Of a stretch of DNA of 64,000 nt, positions 2,260 to 12,409 are shown in pieces (positions within the stretch are counted from its first letter, which is position 1; the number at the start of each line of letters is the position of its first letter). A program made the position numbers and the translations under genes. The DNA is from Parascardovia denticolens DSM 10105 = JCM 12538 (GTDB lineage: Bacteria; Actinomycetota; Actinomycetes; Actinomycetales; Bifidobacteriaceae). The DNA is taken from assembly GCF_001042675.1 (NCBI RefSeq), contig NZ_AP012333.1, positions 248,001-312,000 of the forward strand. Reading direction: 5' to 3'. The notes beneath the pieces are model-generated. The model was not told where the DNA came from. It did not search any database and saw nothing but the letters and a program-made list of their open reading frames with translations.

Positions 2260-2420
2260 TGCTCAGCCATCCATTCTCGTCAAATTCGAAGGTAGTTAAA
2301 GCCCCCATGTAAAAGATAGTATACTCTAAAATATTAATTGAATACGAACAGCATTATGCGTTGGTTTTCTGGTCGAGTTATGCTATTCAGGAAAAAGGAA
2401 GGTGCCTTGTTTCGCTTTCG

Positions 2421-2426
2421 AGGAGG
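2421..2426 (+). promoter_or_regulatory. Ribosome binding site fixing the lectin start
   Basis: A full AGGAGG ends eight bases before the ATG at 2435. This makes the ATG much more likely than the upstream in-frame GTG at 2402. Confidence 0.8.
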
Positions 2427-2434
2427 ACTACCGC

Positions 2435-3448
2435 ATGGTGAATCATTTTTTCGGGCAGCCGGTTGTACCAAAGCATGCGAAGAGGTTCTCTGGCTCACAT
2501 ATTCTGGGTGAAGCAGGGTATGATTCCATTGGTGAAGTGACTTTCCACAATCAGGAAGGTTTTCAGTACGAGTTTCTGCCTTTCCAGGGCAGATTATCGA
2601 AAAAAAGTATAGTTATTCTTGAAGTTTTCATGGTTATTTTTCTCACATGGACATTGATCATTGTCTCGAACAGAGTATTGAACGGTCCTTTAACAGTGAC
2701 TACTTCAAATTACTCAACTGCTTTCGGTTCAATGGGGACAGCAATAAATCAATTTAATCCTAAAACCGGTGTTCAGACATTCACAAAAGATACGGATTGG
2801 CAGCAAGGCGCAATCGCTTTAAAAAGTCCAATTAATCTAGACCGAGATTTCAGTATTACTCTCTCCGTCAATCTTGGTAATAAAGATTCTCAGAAGTTTG
2901 GAAGCGATGGTATAGCCTTTTTCTTCCATTCGGGCTCAGCCTGGGAGTTTGGACATTCTGGTGGCAGTCTTGCCATCGGAGGTATCAAGGACGCCTTTGG
3001 ATTCAAATTAGATACATATTATAATAGCCAAAGCGATGCAGAAAAGGGCGCAAAAAAAGGAATGCAGTACTCTGCTGACCCTCCACAATTCGTTGCAAAA
3101 TCTTTCGGCGCTTTTATCAATACGCAAGGCGTGAACTCGCGGGGGGAAAACGATTCGCAGGTTCCGAAAGGCTTTTCGCAAGTCCTATTTTCAAATCCTT
3201 TACCGCAGGAAATCCCCCCACCAGATCACAATGAATTTCGAGATTTCTCTCTAATTTACAACGGTGAGACAAAGATGATGACCATTCGCTACGCTGGAGT
3301 TGTTTGGGAGAAGAATGTTAAAGAGTGGATTGGTCGCTCTTCGAAATGGTATTTTTCTATTGCTGCAACTACAGGAAGTGGTTATCATAATAGGCAGCAA
3401 GTACGAATTCAACGATGCGAATTCACTCCTGCGAAAATCAATTCTTAG
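2435..3448 (+). CDS. Membrane-anchored L-type (legume-like) lectin
   Basis: 337 residues. Order seen: a cytoplasmic N-terminus of about 57 residues, one membrane helix (about 58-79, with ILEVFMVIFLTW), then an extracytoplasmic domain of about 250 residues that reads as a bacterial L-type lectin: SDGIAFFFHSG (157-167), GFKLDTYYN (189-197) with Asp201, and a C-terminal strand KWYFSIAATTG. The D-T-Y-x-N then Asp arrangement matches the Ca/Mn site of legume lectins such as concanavalin A. There is no signal peptide or LPXTG motif. The gene is AT-rich, lies on the opposite strand within the polysaccharide cluster, and its 3' end overlaps the polymerase gene by 11 bases. Sugar specificity is unknown. 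A role in binding the cell's own polysaccharide or a host glycan is an inference. Confidence 0.78.
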   Translation: MVNHFFGQPVVPKHAKRFSGSHILGEAGYDSIGEVTFHNQEGFQYEFLPFQGRLSKKSIVILEVFMVIFLTWTLIIVSNRVLNGPLTVTTSNYSTAFGSMGTAINQFNPKTGVQTFTKDTDWQQGAIALKSPINLDRDFSITLSVNLGNKDSQKFGSDGIAFFFHSGSAWEFGHSGGSLAIGGIKDAFGFKLDTYYNSQSDAEKGAKKGMQYSADPPQFVAKSFGAFINTQGVNSRGENDSQVPKGFSQVLFSNPLPQEIPPPDHNEFRDFSLIYNGETKMMTIRYAGVVWEKNVKEWIGRSSKWYFSIAATTGSGYHNRQQVRIQRCEFTPAKINS

Positions 3449-4823
3449 AAGCATGAGCTGGGTGGAATAAGTTGTTTTCTTGACGATGGTTAAAATTTCT
3501 TGGAAAATGAGTTTTGATGGGAGGGTGGTGGCGCCCGTGCTGTCTGTACGGTCTTCCAGTTAAAAATCGATATAACCATACTCGTTCTAGTATAGAATTA
3601 GTTGAATTTAAATAATCCGGGTTTTGCGAGTAAATTATTGACGCTATCGCTAGTACAAAGAAGTCGACATAGAGCCATAAACAGAGGGCTTCCATAAGAC
3701 CAATGATTATGAAAAGCGAGTATGAAATGAAGATTGTCTTTGGTGCCTTCAATAGCTTCCACTCGCAGTATAAAAGTATAGCGATCCCAGCTGAACCTAT
3801 GAGAATTCCATTTTGGAGAATTAATCTGGCGAACAAATTATCTACTACAAACCGTATTGGTTCCCCATGTAATGAGTATGATTGAGCCGGCGCTTTGCTA
3901 TAATTGTTTCCTAGGAGGGTCAGCCCGTATTTTTCATAGTAGCTATGCATGAGATGGAATCGACCCGAAGAAAGAGAATCGGTTATAGACCAAAATCGTA
4001 TCTTAGGATTAAACAAGAATAGTGCAATAATGCTAAAGAAAGCAATTGCCAGCGATAAAGCTGCGATTAGGGATGTAATGGTTTTCTCGAACCTCACTTT
4101 GAAGTTGGGTTTTAGCTTAGGCTGAATAACCAGTAAATAAAAAATGACAAGTATTATCACAAAAAAACATATTGTAGATGTGCGAGAACCGGTGATGCGA
4201 TACGTAAACAGAGCAAGAATCAGACAGGTTATAGCGTCAAACCATCGTACTGCCCAACGTTTTAGTGTCAAGCATACAAGGCAAATAGTGAACAGATAAA
4301 TCGCAAGTGTATTTGGGTGTGTGAACCCCATAGAGTGACGGATTCCTCGCGATCCAGAGGCATTCAAAATAAAATCTGAAATCGTACCCGAAGCATATCT
4401 TCCAAAAGTTAGGATTCCAATTAGAATGAGGGAAACTATCAAAATAAAGGCTAAAGAGATTAGAGACAGGCCCTGGGCAGTCAAAATGAATAAGAAAATC
4501 CATACTAAAGTTTTTGATGAGGAATATCGTGAAGAAATGGCGAGCAAGCCTCCCGCCAACCCGAGCAGCAATAAATGTTTTACTTTATATTTCTGTAATA
4601 CAGCTTTTGTACAAAGGCAAATGAGAACGATGCCGTAGCAGATTTTTTTAAAGTGATTAAGATCGAGAAAAAGGAGTGTTTTATTACCAGTTAAACCAAG
4701 CCAAGAATTAAAAGTGAAGACAAAGAAAGCGATTAAAAACAAGGCTTCCCCAAGTTGTTTCACAAGATGATTTTGAGTACTGGGAATTTGTAGGTCTAGA
4801 AATCTGCGGATTTGCGACATCAT
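3438..4823 (-). CDS. Wzy-type O-antigen/capsule polymerase
   Basis: A 461-residue polytopic membrane protein with about 10-12 helices and a large loop near the C-terminus (FNPKIRFWSITDSLSSGRFHLMHSYYEKYG), the usual layout of Wzy/WaaL-type polymerases. R-x-H-motif residues follow in that loop. The start at 4823 (ATGATG) overlaps the stop of the upstream glycosyltransferase gene in an ATGA arrangement, which implies translational coupling; upstream in-frame ATGs lie inside that gene. Expected role: joins lipid-linked repeat units exported by the flippase. The gene is markedly AT-rich compared with the window, which fits horizontal transfer. A ligase role is the main alternative. Confidence 0.82.
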   Translation of the reverse strand: MMSQIRRFLDLQIPSTQNHLVKQLGEALFLIAFFVFTFNSWLGLTGNKTLLFLDLNHFKKICYGIVLICLCTKAVLQKYKVKHLLLLGLAGGLLAISSRYSSSKTLVWIFLFILTAQGLSLISLAFILIVSLILIGILTFGRYASGTISDFILNASGSRGIRHSMGFTHPNTLAIYLFTICLVCLTLKRWAVRWFDAITCLILALFTYRITGSRTSTICFFVIILVIFYLLVIQPKLKPNFKVRFEKTITSLIAALSLAIAFFSIIALFLFNPKIRFWSITDSLSSGRFHLMHSYYEKYGLTLLGNNYSKAPAQSYSLHGEPIRFVVDNLFARLILQNGILIGSAGIAILLYCEWKLLKAPKTIFISYSLFIIIGLMEALCLWLYVDFFVLAIASIIYSQNPDYLNSTNSILERVWLYRFLTGRPYRQHGRHHPPIKTHFPRNFNHRQENNLFHPAHASKN

Positions 4824-5908
4824 ACACCTGCCAGGCCAGCATGAGATTTTTGGGAGTGAATTTTTGAGGAAACTTTGAATATCAGTGTTAATAGAGTAGC
4901 ATTCTGGTATTTCGCAGCGAGGCATACTAGGAACCCTCGTGCCGAAAGGTTATATTCAGATAAGCGAATTCTACGGAGGAGTCGGAATGATTTAATCCGA
5001 AAAATTGCGCTTAGGCAGTTGCGCAGAAAGCAATTACTCAACTTCAGCGAATTATTGCCCCAACGATAATTCAGTTCTGAATACATGCGCATTCCTAGAT
5101 CAGAGGCATCCCAACCGAATCTTTCTCCTGATTCGCAATAAATGTTGAAACTCTCAAATTGATGTATTACATTGCGAAGGTCAAGATGCTTCGTTGTCGA
5201 GCCCGCCGATTGTATATACCAATACCAAACTTCATCAACAATGACCACAGTGTGTGCATTTTGAATTGTAATACTTCCGAATAAACCATCTTCGGCTAAT
5301 GACATTTTTTCAGAGAACCTTTCATCCTTGATAAGGTTGCTCGAATATAGTCTTGGAGCTATTGGATGTGGGCGAATGCCGAAATAGTCTGATCGGGTAT
5401 GGCCTTTTAGAGGGGTTCCAGAGATTGTAAATCGTAAGAAGGAACTAAGTTCAGACCCTGATAATGCCTTTTCACGCGAAACCAGGTTAGAAGGTAGCTG
5501 CGGCTTTGACTCTCCCAAACTAGAATGCGCCAAACGTCCAATCGCGATATCCGCGTTATTGCCCCGCAATGCTTGGGACGCATGTTCCAAGAAAATCGGT
5601 TCAACGGTGTCATCAGCGTCAACAAAAGTGATGTACCGCCCTCTACAGGTATCCAATCCGAAATTCCGAGCCTTGGAGACCCCTCCACGGGGCAGATGAT
5701 AAACATGTATACGGGGATCCTCATGCCCTGCTTCGTCGAGCATGGCGACCGTGTCATCGTCACTCCCGTCGTCAAGGAGGAGCCATTCAAAATCGGTCAG
5801 GGTCTGGTTCAGAACGCTGTTTTTGCATGCCAGGAAAAGCTCTTTGGGGGTATTGTAAACAGGAGTGATGATGGAGACGAGAGGGTGGTCTGAGGTGGTT
5901 GCCGTCAT
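4820..5908 (-). CDS. Family 2 glycosyltransferase
   Basis: 362 residues with a GT-A fold domain in the first 220: VSIITPVYNTP near the start, LLLDDGSDDDT as the nucleotide-binding acidic motif, and the metal-binding FVDADDTVEP. A C-terminal region of about 130 residues without membrane helices follows. Family role: transfers a sugar from a nucleotide sugar to the lipid-linked acceptor; the sugar cannot be told. The start overlaps the stop of the SDR gene (ATGA), and the stop overlaps the start of the polymerase gene, so three genes are chained by overlap. Confidence 0.9.
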   Translation of the reverse strand: MTATTSDHPLVSIITPVYNTPKELFLACKNSVLNQTLTDFEWLLLDDGSDDDTVAMLDEAGHEDPRIHVYHLPRGGVSKARNFGLDTCRGRYITFVDADDTVEPIFLEHASQALRGNNADIAIGRLAHSSLGESKPQLPSNLVSREKALSGSELSSFLRFTISGTPLKGHTRSDYFGIRPHPIAPRLYSSNLIKDERFSEKMSLAEDGLFGSITIQNAHTVVIVDEVWYWYIQSAGSTTKHLDLRNVIHQFESFNIYCESGERFGWDASDLGMRMYSELNYRWGNNSLKLSNCFLRNCLSAIFRIKSFRLLRRIRLSEYNLSARGFLVCLAAKYQNATLLTLIFKVSSKIHSQKSHAGLAGV

Positions 5909-6987
5909 CGGACCGCCTCCCCGGAATCGGCGTCATCGCCCAGTATCTCCAAGGTCCGGCGGAGCCCGTCGGCGATGGAATAATGCGCTTCCCAGCCCAG
6001 GGACCGCAATCTGGACCCGTCCATCATGGCCTTGGTGGCTGTGGAGTAACCCGCCGCTTCAATGGCGTCCGGCAGCTTGAAAATCACCTGCTGGCCGCTG
6101 GCTGCGGCGATCGCGCTGGCCAGGTCTTTCAACATCACGTCGGATTGGGCGTCGGCCACGTTGTAGGCTTGTCCAGCTTCCCCTCGCGTCAGCGCCGTCA
6201 GCAGGCCCTCCACCGTATCCGCCACGTAGAGATAGGAATATTCCTGGGTCCCTTCGCTCTTGAGGACTATGTCTTCGTGGGCCAGACCTTTCTTGATGAA
6301 TTGGGAGAGGGCTTTGGAATCCGAAGAGAGCATGGTGGGGCCATAAGTGCGCGGCAGACGGGGGATGAAGACGGGGACGTGCTTTTGGGCCAGAAAGGCC
6401 TGGCACAAGGCCTCCCCGCAGCGTTTGGACTCGGGGTAGCCGGCGCGCAGGGTGTTGCTGTTGATGTATCCGCAGTAGTCTTCGCTGAATTTTTCGGTGT
6501 CTTCGCGGTTCTGCCCGTAGACTTCCACCGAGGAGGCGAAGACGAACTTGGCCGGCGTCTCGCCCATGCAGGCGTAATCCAAGAGGTTCATGAGGCCTTG
6601 GATATTCGAGGTCACTGTTCCGATGGGGTCGGTGGCGTAGGCACGGGGGTGGGTGGTGCTGGCCAGGTGGATGACCACGTCGGCCGGGTGTGAAGGACGG
6701 CTTCCGGGGAGGCTTACGTCCACCTGGTCAAAGGAGAAATGCGGGTCATCAAAGTAAGGGAGCCGCTTGTGTGCCTTCTCTTCGTCGCGGCCCATGGCGA
6801 TCACGCGGATGCCGGCCTCGTCCTTGGCTGTTTTATGCATGAGGAGGTCAACCAGGAAAGTGCCAATCATGCCGGTCGCGCCGGAAATGGCGATCGTCGC
6901 CCCTTTGAACGAAACCCAGTCGATGCTGAGCGATTTCGCGACCGTTTCCAAGTCTTCCTGATAGAGCTTGTTTTCCAACCTGTGCAT
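5905..6987 (-). CDS. NAD-dependent epimerase/dehydratase (extended SDR)
   Basis: 360 residues. It shows the extended-SDR glycine motif SGATGMIGTFLVD, the HLASTTHP segment, a catalytic Tyr-x3-Lys (GYPESKRCGE) and SSVEVYG. The ATG at 6987 is preferred because GGAAGG precedes it; an in-frame ATG at 6999 is possible. It lies just downstream of the IspD/TarI-like gene. An IspD-like nucleotidyltransferase beside an SDR is the known pattern for CDP-polyol synthesis (for example CDP-ribitol or CDP-arabinitol), so reduction or epimerisation in such a pathway is a reasonable inference. A nucleotide-sugar epimerase is the alternative. Base composition is GC-rich, unlike the AT-rich genes on both sides. 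Confidence 0.8.
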   Translation of the reverse strand: MHRLENKLYQEDLETVAKSLSIDWVSFKGATIAISGATGMIGTFLVDLLMHKTAKDEAGIRVIAMGRDEEKAHKRLPYFDDPHFSFDQVDVSLPGSRPSHPADVVIHLASTTHPRAYATDPIGTVTSNIQGLMNLLDYACMGETPAKFVFASSVEVYGQNREDTEKFSEDYCGYINSNTLRAGYPESKRCGEALCQAFLAQKHVPVFIPRLPRTYGPTMLSSDSKALSQFIKKGLAHEDIVLKSEGTQEYSYLYVADTVEGLLTALTRGEAGQAYNVADAQSDVMLKDLASAIAAASGQQVIFKLPDAIEAAGYSTATKAMMDGSRLRSLGWEAHYSIADGLRRTLEILGDDADSGEAVR

Positions 6988-7078
6988 GATGCCTTCCATC
7001 CGTCCGAGTGTGTCCTAGCGTGTCTAAGTGTGTTGGCGTATCCGAACATGTCCTAGTTTACTGCCACCTGGCTTGAGC

Positions 7079-7804
7079 CTACTTGAGCCAGGTGTCTTCA
7101 TCCTGACGCAGGTAAGCCTTGAACATCTCCAGATTGTCTTTGGTCGTGAGCTTGATGTTCTTCTCCGAGCCGGCGGCGAAGTAAAGGCGGACCCCCAGCT
7201 GGACCATCATGGTGTTGGTGTAGTTGGACCCGTCGATACCGATCTTCTTCTCGAAAGCTTCATGATATTTGGAATCCAGGAGGTCGAAACGGTAAGCCTG
7301 CGGGGTGGAGACGCGACGGAGCTTTTCACGCGGAATGTATTCGGTGGTGGTGGAAGGGTCTTCCGGATCCACGAAGAAGATTTGCTCGTTGTAAGGCAGG
7401 GAGGTCACGGCGTTGCCATGTTGACGGGCGATGCGCAATACGTCGGAAAGGATGGCGGAATCGACCAAAGGGCGCACGCCGTCATGGATGACCACCAGGT
7501 CGTCCGGTTGGGCGATGCCTTCTAGGCTATAGACTCCGTTGCGGATGGATTCTTGGCCGGACTCGCCTCCGGGGACGATTGTGATCAGCTTGTCGATGTT
7601 GAACTGCTTGGCGTAGGCGCGGGTGACCTCTTCCCAACCTTTGATGCAGACCACGACGATTTTATCGATTTCGGGGTGCCGCTGGAAGCTTTCCAAAGTA
7701 TAGACGATGACGGGTTTGTCGAAGACGTTGATGAATTGCTTGGGCAGGTCCTGGCCCATGCGGGAGCCTGAACCGCCTGCGATGAGTACCGCGATGTTCG
7801 CCAT
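7079..7804 (-). CDS. IspD/TarI-family cytidylyltransferase
   Basis: 241 residues, close to the family length. Motifs: AVLIAGGSGSRMG with PKQF (CTP binding), VIHDGVRPLVD, and TPQAYRFDLL, all diagnostic of the IspD/TarI family. GGAGG six bases before the ATG supports the start. The context (LicD, SDR, glycosyltransferases, flippase) points to a TarI-like enzyme making a CDP-polyol for surface polymer decoration rather than the isoprenoid enzyme IspD. That choice is inferred from neighbours, since sequence alone does not separate the two cleanly. Confidence 0.83.
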   Translation of the reverse strand: MANIAVLIAGGSGSRMGQDLPKQFINVFDKPVIVYTLESFQRHPEIDKIVVVCIKGWEEVTRAYAKQFNIDKLITIVPGGESGQESIRNGVYSLEGIAQPDDLVVIHDGVRPLVDSAILSDVLRIARQHGNAVTSLPYNEQIFFVDPEDPSTTTEYIPREKLRRVSTPQAYRFDLLDSKYHEAFEKKIGIDGSNYTNTMMVQLGVRLYFAAGSEKNIKLTTKDNLEMFKAYLRQDEDTWLK

Positions 7805-7890
7805 TTAAAACCTCCGCTGGACAGACCCTGCCTGAATTCCTTCTTTTTTATAGAGCTTACACGCATGTTTAGTCTTGACTGGGCTTTCGC

Positions 7891-8742
7891 TTACTCCCGC
7901 CATGCTTTCATTTGATGATTCACCCTCTTTTCCACAGGTGGCAAAGTCATGTAATCGCCGTATATGCCGGTCAGATAGCTATCCCAGCAAGACATGGCTT
8001 TGAATCGTTCGCCTTCGAAGGTCACTTCAACCGTGTCTTCATACCCCTTGATGGGCATGCGTTCGCCAGCCCCGTAGAGTCCGTTGGTGAGGGCACCGAC
8101 ATACCCCGTGGATCCATATGGGTTTTCCTTGGCGATCCGATTGATTTTGTGCATGGCCTTTTTCCCCAGCCAATGATTCCTATCTATTGACTGGAAACAG
8201 CGTTTGACGATTTTTCGTAGGAAAGTTGTCCCCTCGTGAGGATTTGCATAGGACATGCTAAGAATTTTACGGTAAAAGGTCACGCGACGGTAAAGCTTTT
8301 GGGTTGCTGCAGCTGAATCGGGCAAGCCATCGATAGGCATGATGTCGATCCATAGATGCCCTGGATTTTGATTAAAACGTTCTTGAACATGCACTTTTGT
8401 CGAGACGAGTTTAACGAAGGTCGATTCCTCGAGGGGGACCAGATAGATATCTTCCAACTCGAGCCTTTTGAGTGAATGGTTGTGGTGGATGAAATCGATC
8501 ATTTTCATGTAGTCATATCGTGGCATTCCAACGTCGATGTCATCGTCCCAGGGGATGAATCCCTGATGACGGATTGCGCCAAGCAGAGTACCGCCGATGA
8601 GCGTGTATTTCAAATTCAGACTGCTGCAGAGTTCCTTGAAAGCAAGAAGGATGTTAAGCTCTTCTTTCTTTATCTCGTCCGCTGAGAGAAGGTTGCTTGT
8701 CCTATTCTTCGCAGGTTGGATCAGGGTTCTTACGTTGCTCAT
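7891..8742 (-). CDS. LicD-family phosphotransferase
   Basis: 283 residues. The hallmark LicD segment is present: TLIGGTLLGAIRHQGFIPWD, then DDIDVGMPR, near residues 43-70. LicD proteins transfer phosphocholine, phosphoribitol or similar groups from a CDP donor to sugars in surface polymers. Here the likely donor is the product of the IspD/TarI-like gene downstream on the same strand. No ribosome binding site is visible; a TATAAT box lies eight bases before the ATG, suggesting a leaderless message. The gene is AT-rich relative to its neighbour at 7079-7804. Confidence 0.87.
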   Translation of the reverse strand: MSNVRTLIQPAKNRTSNLLSADEIKKEELNILLAFKELCSSLNLKYTLIGGTLLGAIRHQGFIPWDDDIDVGMPRYDYMKMIDFIHHNHSLKRLELEDIYLVPLEESTFVKLVSTKVHVQERFNQNPGHLWIDIMPIDGLPDSAAATQKLYRRVTFYRKILSMSYANPHEGTTFLRKIVKRCFQSIDRNHWLGKKAMHKINRIAKENPYGSTGYVGALTNGLYGAGERMPIKGYEDTVEVTFEGERFKAMSCWDSYLTGIYGDYMTLPPVEKRVNHQMKAWRE

Positions 8743-8883: not shown

Positions 8884-9879
8884 TTATTTTCTGCTGACGA
8901 GCCGCAACAAGCAGTCGTGTAGCTTTGGGCATAAGGCGAAGATGAGAAATCGAATTTTTGAGGATAACGGGCAGTCCGAATCCATTAGAAGTTTTCCGTA
9001 ATGCCGTCTTACATATTTAATGATTCGTGAGTCAATCTTCCGGGCTTGAAGCGGCTGATCAATGATGGTTACTACCACTGAATGCAATCGTACATAGGAG
9101 AGAACTGTACGGTACAGGATAGCGGCCTTCAGCGGTCGTGGCTGTGAATAAGCCCATCTAGTCAGAGAGTTGATGGCATCGATATAATCATTTGCTTGTG
9201 TCAGTTTTGCATGGCGTCTATGCACTATTGAGCCAGTCCGCTGAACATAGCCGTATGTAGGCTCGGAAATTAGAACGAAACTACGGCAGCTGGAAAGAAT
9301 TTTGCCTATCGTAGCCAAGTCTTCATACACTTTTCCGATTGGGAAAAAATCGTCTGTAAGATCCGACCGTAAGAATAGCTTGCCACAAGCACACTCGGGT
9401 ATGCGATTGTAAAGTGTGTCGTGAATCATCTGTTCTTGGGAGATCATGCGGTTGTGAGACGGTTTTTCCCATTTGATGTCATGGGCCACAGCCTTCTTGA
9501 AACTTTCATTTTGAATTTTTGCGATTGCCATTGAACCAGGGTTCTGTTTGGCGGCGGCTACCATAGATGCGATGTAGTAGGGCGAGACTACGTCATCGCC
9601 ATCTACGAAAGCGACATACTTACCAGTTGAGCTGGCGATGCCGGTATTTCGTGCGGTTGACAGCCCCCCGTGTTTCTGATGAATAACGATGATTCTTTGG
9701 TCTAAATCTTGGTAATGGTCGAGAAGCTTTCCCGTCATATCTGTCGAGGCATCATCGACTAGTATAAATTCGCAACTCGGATAGGTCTGTCGTAGAAGGC
9801 TATTTACACAATACTCCACGCAGTCGTGGATATTGTAGAAAGGAACTATCACGGAAACTTTCGGGCAAGAATCTTTCAT
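8884..9879 (-). CDS. Family 2 glycosyltransferase
   Basis: 331 residues with a typical GT-A domain: VSVIVPFYNIHDC, FILVDDASTDMT, TARNTGI and the DxD-type FVDGDDVVSP. The C-terminal 110 residues are basic and mixed, without clear membrane helices. AAAGG eight bases before the ATG supports the start. It is probably the first gene of the minus-strand polysaccharide cluster in this window. Donor and acceptor sugars are unknown. The gene is AT-rich like the LicD gene that follows. Confidence 0.9.
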   Translation of the reverse strand: MKDSCPKVSVIVPFYNIHDCVEYCVNSLLRQTYPSCEFILVDDASTDMTGKLLDHYQDLDQRIIVIHQKHGGLSTARNTGIASSTGKYVAFVDGDDVVSPYYIASMVAAAKQNPGSMAIAKIQNESFKKAVAHDIKWEKPSHNRMISQEQMIHDTLYNRIPECACGKLFLRSDLTDDFFPIGKVYEDLATIGKILSSCRSFVLISEPTYGYVQRTGSIVHRRHAKLTQANDYIDAINSLTRWAYSQPRPLKAAILYRTVLSYVRLHSVVVTIIDQPLQARKIDSRIIKYVRRHYGKLLMDSDCPLSSKIRFLIFALCPKLHDCLLRLVSRK

Positions 9880-11479: not shown

Positions 11480-12382
11480 TCATTTGGGAGATGGGTAGCA
11501 AATGCCCTCTTGATAGTCGGAATCTGAGCCGATCAAGTCCGTGATTGCTTTGGAGACGGATGTATCGCCATCAATATGTTTGCGATAATCATTCAACATG
11601 ATGATGGTGGAGAAGACGCTCTGATTACTGTATTTCATTTGTTTCGGCCGTAGCTTTTTAGGAACAGGGGCCGCAATATCAAGTGGCCTGTGCCAGAGTT
11701 GACTATGGTGAGCGCAGCGATTTCGCAGAGTGGAAATCGAGTGTAAAGTGTTCGGGAAAGGGACCCACTGGATTCCAAGACCGCTAGTCACTGCTTTCGC
11801 TGGTCCGTTATCTTTAAAATCGCTGAGCATGCGGGAGAATTTTCCCAGACTGATGACTTCAACCGCGACCCAAATCGGAAGCTTTTCATAGCCGGCATAG
11901 GCATTATCCAGATGATCGCTGCGGTAATGCAATATCATCTTGCTATTGCTTCGTTGAATGTTAGAGAGAAGCCCGCCTGGAACATTGATCGGTTCGCCGT
12001 CGTGAGTTGTATTTGGGAAATAGAGTTCGGGCTTAAGGTAGAACGCTCCGTTCCCGTAGGATTGCCCTAAAGCATGTGCATACCTCGTTTTTGTGGCGGT
12101 TTCCACATAGCTGATTTGTTCGAGAAGCAGATGTCGAAGTTGGTGGTCTTTCAGCATAATTTCGCAGATGTGGTTGAAATTGGTAGAAGGCATGAAATTA
12201 TTTTTTCCGTGGCGTGGGTCCTCCTGCCAATGGCGGGCATACCCGGAGAATCGATAGTAGTTCATATTCGTCAGGAACTCTTTAAGTGCGTTCGAGTCCT
12301 GACAATTCAGGCCACGTTCTTCAATCAACAAATCAGTCAATTGATCAATCGTCTTAAAAGGCTTCGATGAGGGGGCGGCCAT
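11480..12382 (-). CDS. Abi_2/AbiF-type abortive infection protein (HEPN)
   Basis: 300 residues. Features of the Abi_2 (AbiD/AbiF) family: N-terminal KTIDQLTDLLIEERGL, NMNYYRFSGYARHW, LRHLLLEQISYVETATKTRY and a HEPN RNase motif R-x4-H in RNRCAHHSQLWHR at about residue 220. Family role: phage defence by RNA cleavage in infected cells. The ATG at 12382 is preferred over the in-frame TTG at 12397 because AAGGAG sits between them at the right spacing. A strong double-stem structure lies directly upstream (12410-12466). The gene stands alone between housekeeping and surface genes, the usual setting for a single-gene defence island. Confidence 0.87.
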   Translation of the reverse strand: MAAPSSKPFKTIDQLTDLLIEERGLNCQDSNALKEFLTNMNYYRFSGYARHWQEDPRHGKNNFMPSTNFNHICEIMLKDHQLRHLLLEQISYVETATKTRYAHALGQSYGNGAFYLKPELYFPNTTHDGEPINVPGGLLSNIQRSNSKMILHYRSDHLDNAYAGYEKLPIWVAVEVISLGKFSRMLSDFKDNGPAKAVTSGLGIQWVPFPNTLHSISTLRNRCAHHSQLWHRPLDIAAPVPKKLRPKQMKYSNQSVFSTIIMLNDYRKHIDGDTSVSKAITDLIGSDSDYQEGICYPSPK

Positions 12383-12409
12383 TGCTCTCCTTAGCAAGAA
12401 TACAAAACG

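Follow-up and report, generated by a model that had tools for sequence, protein, structure and literature searches.

The closest described relatives of the protein reported here are L-type lectins of Pfam family PF18483, a domain whose bacterial examples are known chiefly as adhesins. In the lectin domain of SraP, a single Ca2+ has Asp365, Asp382, Asn369 and the main chain of Tyr367 as its ligands, and the second metal of plant lectins is absent (PMC4047093). In YwfG, the Ca2+ ligands are Asp152, Tyr154, Asn156 and Asp166, and the mannose contacts include Asp117, Asn156 and Tyr154 (PMC9815576). The YwfG study notes the view that adhesins perform best with their binding site held as far out as it can be (PMC9815576). 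A sugar-binding jelly-roll domain has also been described in Wzc of E. coli. This domain adjoins the membrane and bound repeat-unit-like glycans; capsule production was almost lost upon its deletion, and a function in repeat-unit loading was proposed (PMC12881504). Here we describe a small, membrane-anchored L-type lectin encoded within a polysaccharide locus of Parascardovia denticolens. A search of the titles and abstracts of the open-access literature for L-type lectins associated with polysaccharide loci, or for Parascardovia exopolysaccharide, yielded no description of such an arrangement.

A stalkless lectin with a single membrane helix

The window, the whole 64,000-nucleotide stretch of DNA analysed, which spans 248001-312000 of the P. 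denticolens contig, contains an intact open reading frame at 2435..3448 (+) coding for a protein of 337 aa, which Pfam and the structure model identify as a small membrane-anchored L-type lectin. A strong ribosome site, gaggagg, read directly at 2420..2426 (+), precedes its ATG at 2435 by 8 nt; a GTG upstream, at 2402, is a possible but less likely alternative start. The lectin domain (2696..3412, +) occupies residues 88-326 and matches PF18483 (Lectin_L-type_dom) over profile positions 1-214 of 215, with a score of 219.6 bits (E=5.7e-65), far beyond chance; the curated cut-off is 78.3 bits. Among solved structures, SraP is the best match (4m01, E=1.6e-36), with YwfG also among the nearest. 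In the AlphaFold model, one helix at 56-80 is followed by a jelly-roll, for which Foldseek ranked SraP first (E=2e-23, TM 0.64 over the whole query), together with YwfG; other L-type lectins came next. The outer L-type lectin domain proposed in the preliminary description, and the legume-lectin fold by which it was to be checked, are thus both borne out.

The single transmembrane helix that had been predicted was likewise found. It spans residues 58-80 (2606..2674, +), carries K/R on its inner side, appears in the AlphaFold model and coincides with the only hydrophobic stretch of the protein (Kyte-Doolittle maximum of 2.76 at 59-77). By the positive-inside rule, the lectin domain would lie on the outer side of the membrane, beginning about 5-8 residues past the helix. 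Neither an LPXTG motif nor a lipobox was found in the 337 residues, in agreement with the small size and missing wall-sorting motif noted earlier. Nor was a stalk, a wall repeat or a second domain found, PF18483 being the only Pfam match. The co-polymerase build of Wzz, Wzc and CpsC, a PF02706 match with two flanking helices, is also absent from this one-helix protein. The inner part (2435..2605, +) does have the 57 residues originally given, but this length is not a conserved property: the model is of low confidence over the first 51 residues, and the inner part comprises only about 20 residues in the counterpart of Scardovia inopinata described below. Judged by its sequence, the protein is a stalkless, single-helix form of the already known PF18483 lectin family.

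The predicted Ca2+/sugar site

In an alignment with SraP and YwfG, D193-T-Y195-Y-N197 and D215 (3011..3079, +) fall on the Ca2+ ligands of both, and D158 (2906-2908, +) falls on the sugar-contacting Asp of YwfG. All of these SraP/YwfG site positions, D193, Y195, N197, D215 and D158, are kept. The residues first described as ConA-like (D-T-Y-x-N, D) are therefore present; the likeness to ConA probably does not extend to a plant Ca2+/Mn2+ pair, since the closest relative, SraP, binds only Ca2+. In the S. inopinata lectin, Asp replaces the Asn that contacts the sugar in YwfG. The loops around the site also depart from those of the adhesins: the loop at the C-terminal end (Gly250-Ala251-Phe252 in YwfG) is apparently one residue longer in P. 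denticolens (TTGSGYHN), and a TG pair common in the PF18483 family is missing from the S. inopinata sequence in the alignment. Since these loops are unlike those of the adhesins, the sugar specificity is probably different as well.

The lectin gene lies between flippase and probable polymerase genes

P. denticolens JCM 12538T was isolated from human dental caries (PMC4432353). Upstream of the lectin gene lies a Wzx-type flippase gene (PF13440/PF01943; 712..2259, -), the sole PF13440 match of the genome. Downstream lies a probable Wzy polymerase gene of 39% GC (3438..4925, -). Its product has no Pfam Wzy match, and the name is deduced from the multi-helix build, the place in the locus and a short similarity to an S. 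inopinata protein. The order is thus flippase, lectin, probable polymerase, with the lectin gene on the strand opposite to both; its 3' end and that of the probable wzy are convergent and overlap by 11 bp. Beyond the polymerase gene, Pfam identified, all on the minus strand, a GT2 glycosyltransferase (4820..5908), an NAD-dependent sugar epimerase/dehydratase (5905..6999), an IspD/TarI-type cytidylyltransferase (7079..7804), a LicD-family phosphotransferase (7891..8742) and a second GT2 glycosyltransferase (8884..9879), and, on the plus strand, a membrane acyltransferase (PF01757; 10198..11451). The occurrence of a flippase together with glycosyltransferases marks this as a Wzx/Wzy-type locus. 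The priming transferase is encoded elsewhere, near 1.80 Mb of the genome, and a search for PF02706 (Wzz) in the whole genome gave no match at E<=1.

The lectin gene, wzy and the first glycosyltransferase gene have a GC3 of 0.38-0.44, as compared to 0.71-0.87 in 10 of the 13 other window genes sampled; the low values point to these three having been acquired. The lectin gene has a GC of 0.42, versus about 0.6 for housekeeping genes. A search for inverted repeats that could mark an invertible promoter gave short pairs only, one arm of each lying in a coding region. A promoter scan did not rise above shuffled sequences, and nothing was detected just upstream of the lectin gene.

Several other features of the surroundings were recorded. 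The cytidylyltransferase gene adjoining LicD (7079-8742, -) suggests a polymer with phospho-substituents such as polyol- or choline-phosphate. At the edge of the locus, 11480-12397 (-) codes for an Abi_2-family protein (PF07751, E=7e-42), possibly a phage-defence gene. A gene for a surface protein with an Adhesin_P1_N domain lies at genome positions 240992-242731 (L021:7992-9731), some 8 kb upstream of the lectin; the C-terminus of this surface protein has the hydrophobic segment and basic tail typical of wall-anchored proteins. Elsewhere in the genome (G000:C1:1701489-1701806), a sortase match contains one in-frame TGA and may be a broken gene.

A counterpart in Scardovia inopinata

A second lectin of the same build was found in S. 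inopinata (JCM 12537T; genome described in PMC4432351), at L022:9381-10259. It is a protein of 292 aa with one N-terminal helix, and is 33-36% identical to that of P. denticolens. Its gene lies in a row on one strand, in the order GT32-like, lectin, a 203-residue two-helix protein and Wzy-like, with gaps of 38, 15 and 17 bp, a tight packing that appears operon-like. The sole PF13440 flippase gene of that genome lies close by on the opposite strand. The link to polysaccharide genes suspected from the P. denticolens locus is thereby strengthened: the only other membrane-anchored relative found also lies in a wzx/wzy-type locus.

The polymer genes of the two species have diverged strongly. The flippases are 22% identical over 181 aa and the Wzy-like proteins 31% over 90 aa, versus 64% for the priming transferases. 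The lectins appear to have diverged along with the polymer genes, unlike the better-kept priming transferase, which we count in support of a function connected to the polymer. A third genome of the group (G002) has neither a PF13440 flippase nor the lectin. The presence of both in two of three genomes, and the absence of both from the third, is suggestive only.

The two-helix protein between the S. inopinata lectin and Wzy-like genes (L022:10275-10886) resembles a co-polymerase in build, a label which rests on that build and on its place in the row. Pfam gave no match for it, and none of the other 188 Bifidobacteriaceae genomes contained a relative; its predicted structure (pLDDT 52.6) was too poor for the Foldseek matches to have meaning.

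The linkage to polysaccharide genes and the retained Ca2+/sugar site would also be expected of a retention anchor, which would tether finished capsule or exopolysaccharide non-covalently, outside synthesis. The orientation of the P. denticolens gene, opposite to its neighbours and hence transcribed on its own, would fit such a function too. However, finished polymer should be less accessible to a stalkless domain held at the membrane under the wall, and in S. inopinata the gene sits between glycosyltransferase and polymerase genes, a position expected of assembly. We therefore regard a retention anchor as unlikely, though to be kept in mind.

Elsewhere the family consists almost entirely of large adhesins

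Above the cut-off, PF18483 was found in only 2 of 189 Bifidobacteriaceae genomes, those of P. denticolens and S. inopinata. Three of 395 genomes of the class had a match, the two besides P. denticolens being in frames of 754 and 1184 aa. The family was present in 85 of 298 Lactobacillales genomes and, at E<=1e-30, in 11 of 400 Bacilli genomes. Among the matches listed from these approximately 1,280 genomes (the sum of the group sizes, with some overlap between draws), there was no other intact small membrane-anchored PF18483 lectin, although small, weakly matching Lactobacillales members could be missed. Only two open frames below 420 aa were present among the Lactobacillales and Bacilli matches listed, and neither qualified: one (G784) is cut by the end of a contig, and the other (G844) adjoins WxL-type genes and is broken into two ORFs. 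Outside Parascardovia and Scardovia the domain thus occurs almost entirely in large adhesins, as had been supposed when the small protein was contrasted with the large wall-anchored L-type lectins of bacteria. Relatives unconnected to polysaccharide genes, which would weaken the proposed link, do exist for the domain family at large, in the Lactobacillales adhesins; none was seen for the membrane-anchored form.

A protein-only scan of genome contigs gave no confirmed relative. Four relatives were retrieved with an alignment of the two sequences, and all of them look like large surface proteins; the one from Kurthia runs off its contig. Matches listed from plasmid and phage records covered no more than 75% of the lectin query, and never the helix. 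A possible parallel case is a 421-aa PF18483 lectin with no obvious wall anchor in a Lactobacillales genome (G618; L045:6818-8083), near polysaccharide deacetylase-like and GT2 synthase-like genes. Three other Bifidobacteriaceae have Wzy-like relatives but no such lectin above the cut-off; therefore, the lectin is not a general requirement.

A compact adhesin must also be considered. Like SraP, YwfG or Llp1, it would bind glycans from saliva, the diet or neighbouring cells, and it would owe its place in the locus merely to horizontal transfer into a variable region. The known relatives bind Neu5Ac (PMC4047093) or alpha-1,2-mannose (PMC9815576), the source of P. denticolens is dental caries, and the low GC of the gene suggests acquisition. 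Against this, the protein has neither stalk nor wall anchor, and the same setting is found in S. inopinata, where the polymer genes are different. Moreover, a membrane-bound domain measuring about 5 nm would not be expected to extend beyond the Gram-positive wall. We consider an adhesin somewhat less probable even than a retention anchor.

In a tree of 24 domains, from which one very long row (L080) had been left out, the P. denticolens and S. inopinata lectins paired with a support of 83/89; with this row included (25 domains) they did not pair. Their branches are 1.55 and 1.97 long, versus a median of 0.71, and a false join of the two is therefore possible. A segment, FGAF[IV]NTQGV[ND]SRG, is common to both and was seen in none of the 23 remaining aligned rows. 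A common origin of the two lectins is likely rather than demonstrated. The long branches, the non-conserved inner part and the low GC might also be expected of a functionless, decaying remnant of a wall-anchored adhesin that has lost its stalk and anchor. Such decay is hard to reconcile with the intact frames of both species, their shared compact build, the conservation of metal and sugar residues, the strong ribosome site and the operon-like packing in S. inopinata, and we hold it to be very improbable.

A proposed function in polysaccharide assembly

We propose that the lectin is a membrane-tethered sugar receptor of Wzx/Wzy assembly and that its ligand would be the repeat unit or nascent chain of the cell itself, a reading to which we give about an even chance. 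The helix would keep the Ca2+-dependent lectin domain close to the external surface of the membrane, at which undecaprenyl-linked repeat units would reach it from Wzx and chains would grow on Wzy. Binding there, possibly in contact with Wzx or Wzy, the lectin might either help to pass the repeat unit to the polymerase or hold the growing polymer, and so affect the polymer made. The same function was proposed for the membrane-proximal jelly-roll domain of E. coli Wzc. A self ligand rather than a host sugar is probable because of the stalkless, membrane-proximal position of the lectin.

Counted in favour of the assembly function were the lectin fold and site, the lack of a stalk, the locus order in two species, the co-occurrence with a flippase, the divergence with the polymer genes, the Wzc precedent and the lack of a PF02706 match in the P. 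denticolens genome. Counted against it were the small number of examples (two species), the strand of the P. denticolens gene, which is opposite to that of its neighbours and so gives no sign of co-transcription, the lectin-less Wzy-like relatives, the Asp for Asn in the S. inopinata site, the host or yeast glycans known as ligands of the relatives, and the moderate support, on long branches, for common ancestry.

If the proposal is correct, a domain of adhesins has been reused inside a polymer assembly line. A separate small lectin would then offer a tractable handle on the transfer of repeat units from flippase to polymerase and on the holding of nascent polymer, and a first functional approach to the surface polysaccharides of two caries-isolated relatives of the bifidobacteria.

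Comparison with known systems

With the SraP/YwfG/Llp1-type lectins of PF18483, the P. denticolens protein shares the domain, the fold and the Ca2+ ligands (D-x-Y-x-N ... D), most of the aligned domain relatives being 30-39% identical to it. Those lectins are adhesins, either secreted or bound to the wall, and have stalks, Mub repeats, or WxL or LPXTG anchors, whereas the P. denticolens lectin is stalkless, has a single helix and is encoded in a polysaccharide locus. The likeness to the Wzc jelly-roll of E. coli K12 is one of working, and no homology is claimed: in both cases a membrane-proximal, sugar-binding jelly-roll would act beside Wzx and Wzy, the binding being predicted in P. denticolens, but the Wzc domain is part of the co-polymerase and the lectin is a separate one-helix protein. 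By this analogy we tentatively suggest, as a less probable extension of the proposal, that a stand-alone lectin could serve as a repeat-unit receptor or co-polymerase subunit in Gram-positive Wzx/Wzy assembly, its specificity evolving with the polymer. Finally, ERGIC-53, VIP36 and Emp46-47 are eukaryotic L-type lectins, likewise anchored in a membrane, which act in sorting glycans of the cell itself. They are proteins of the secretory pathway with type I topology, opposite to that predicted for the P. denticolens lectin. They appeared among its Foldseek matches, with identities of only 10-16% among the matches listed, and are compared to it here by analogy only.
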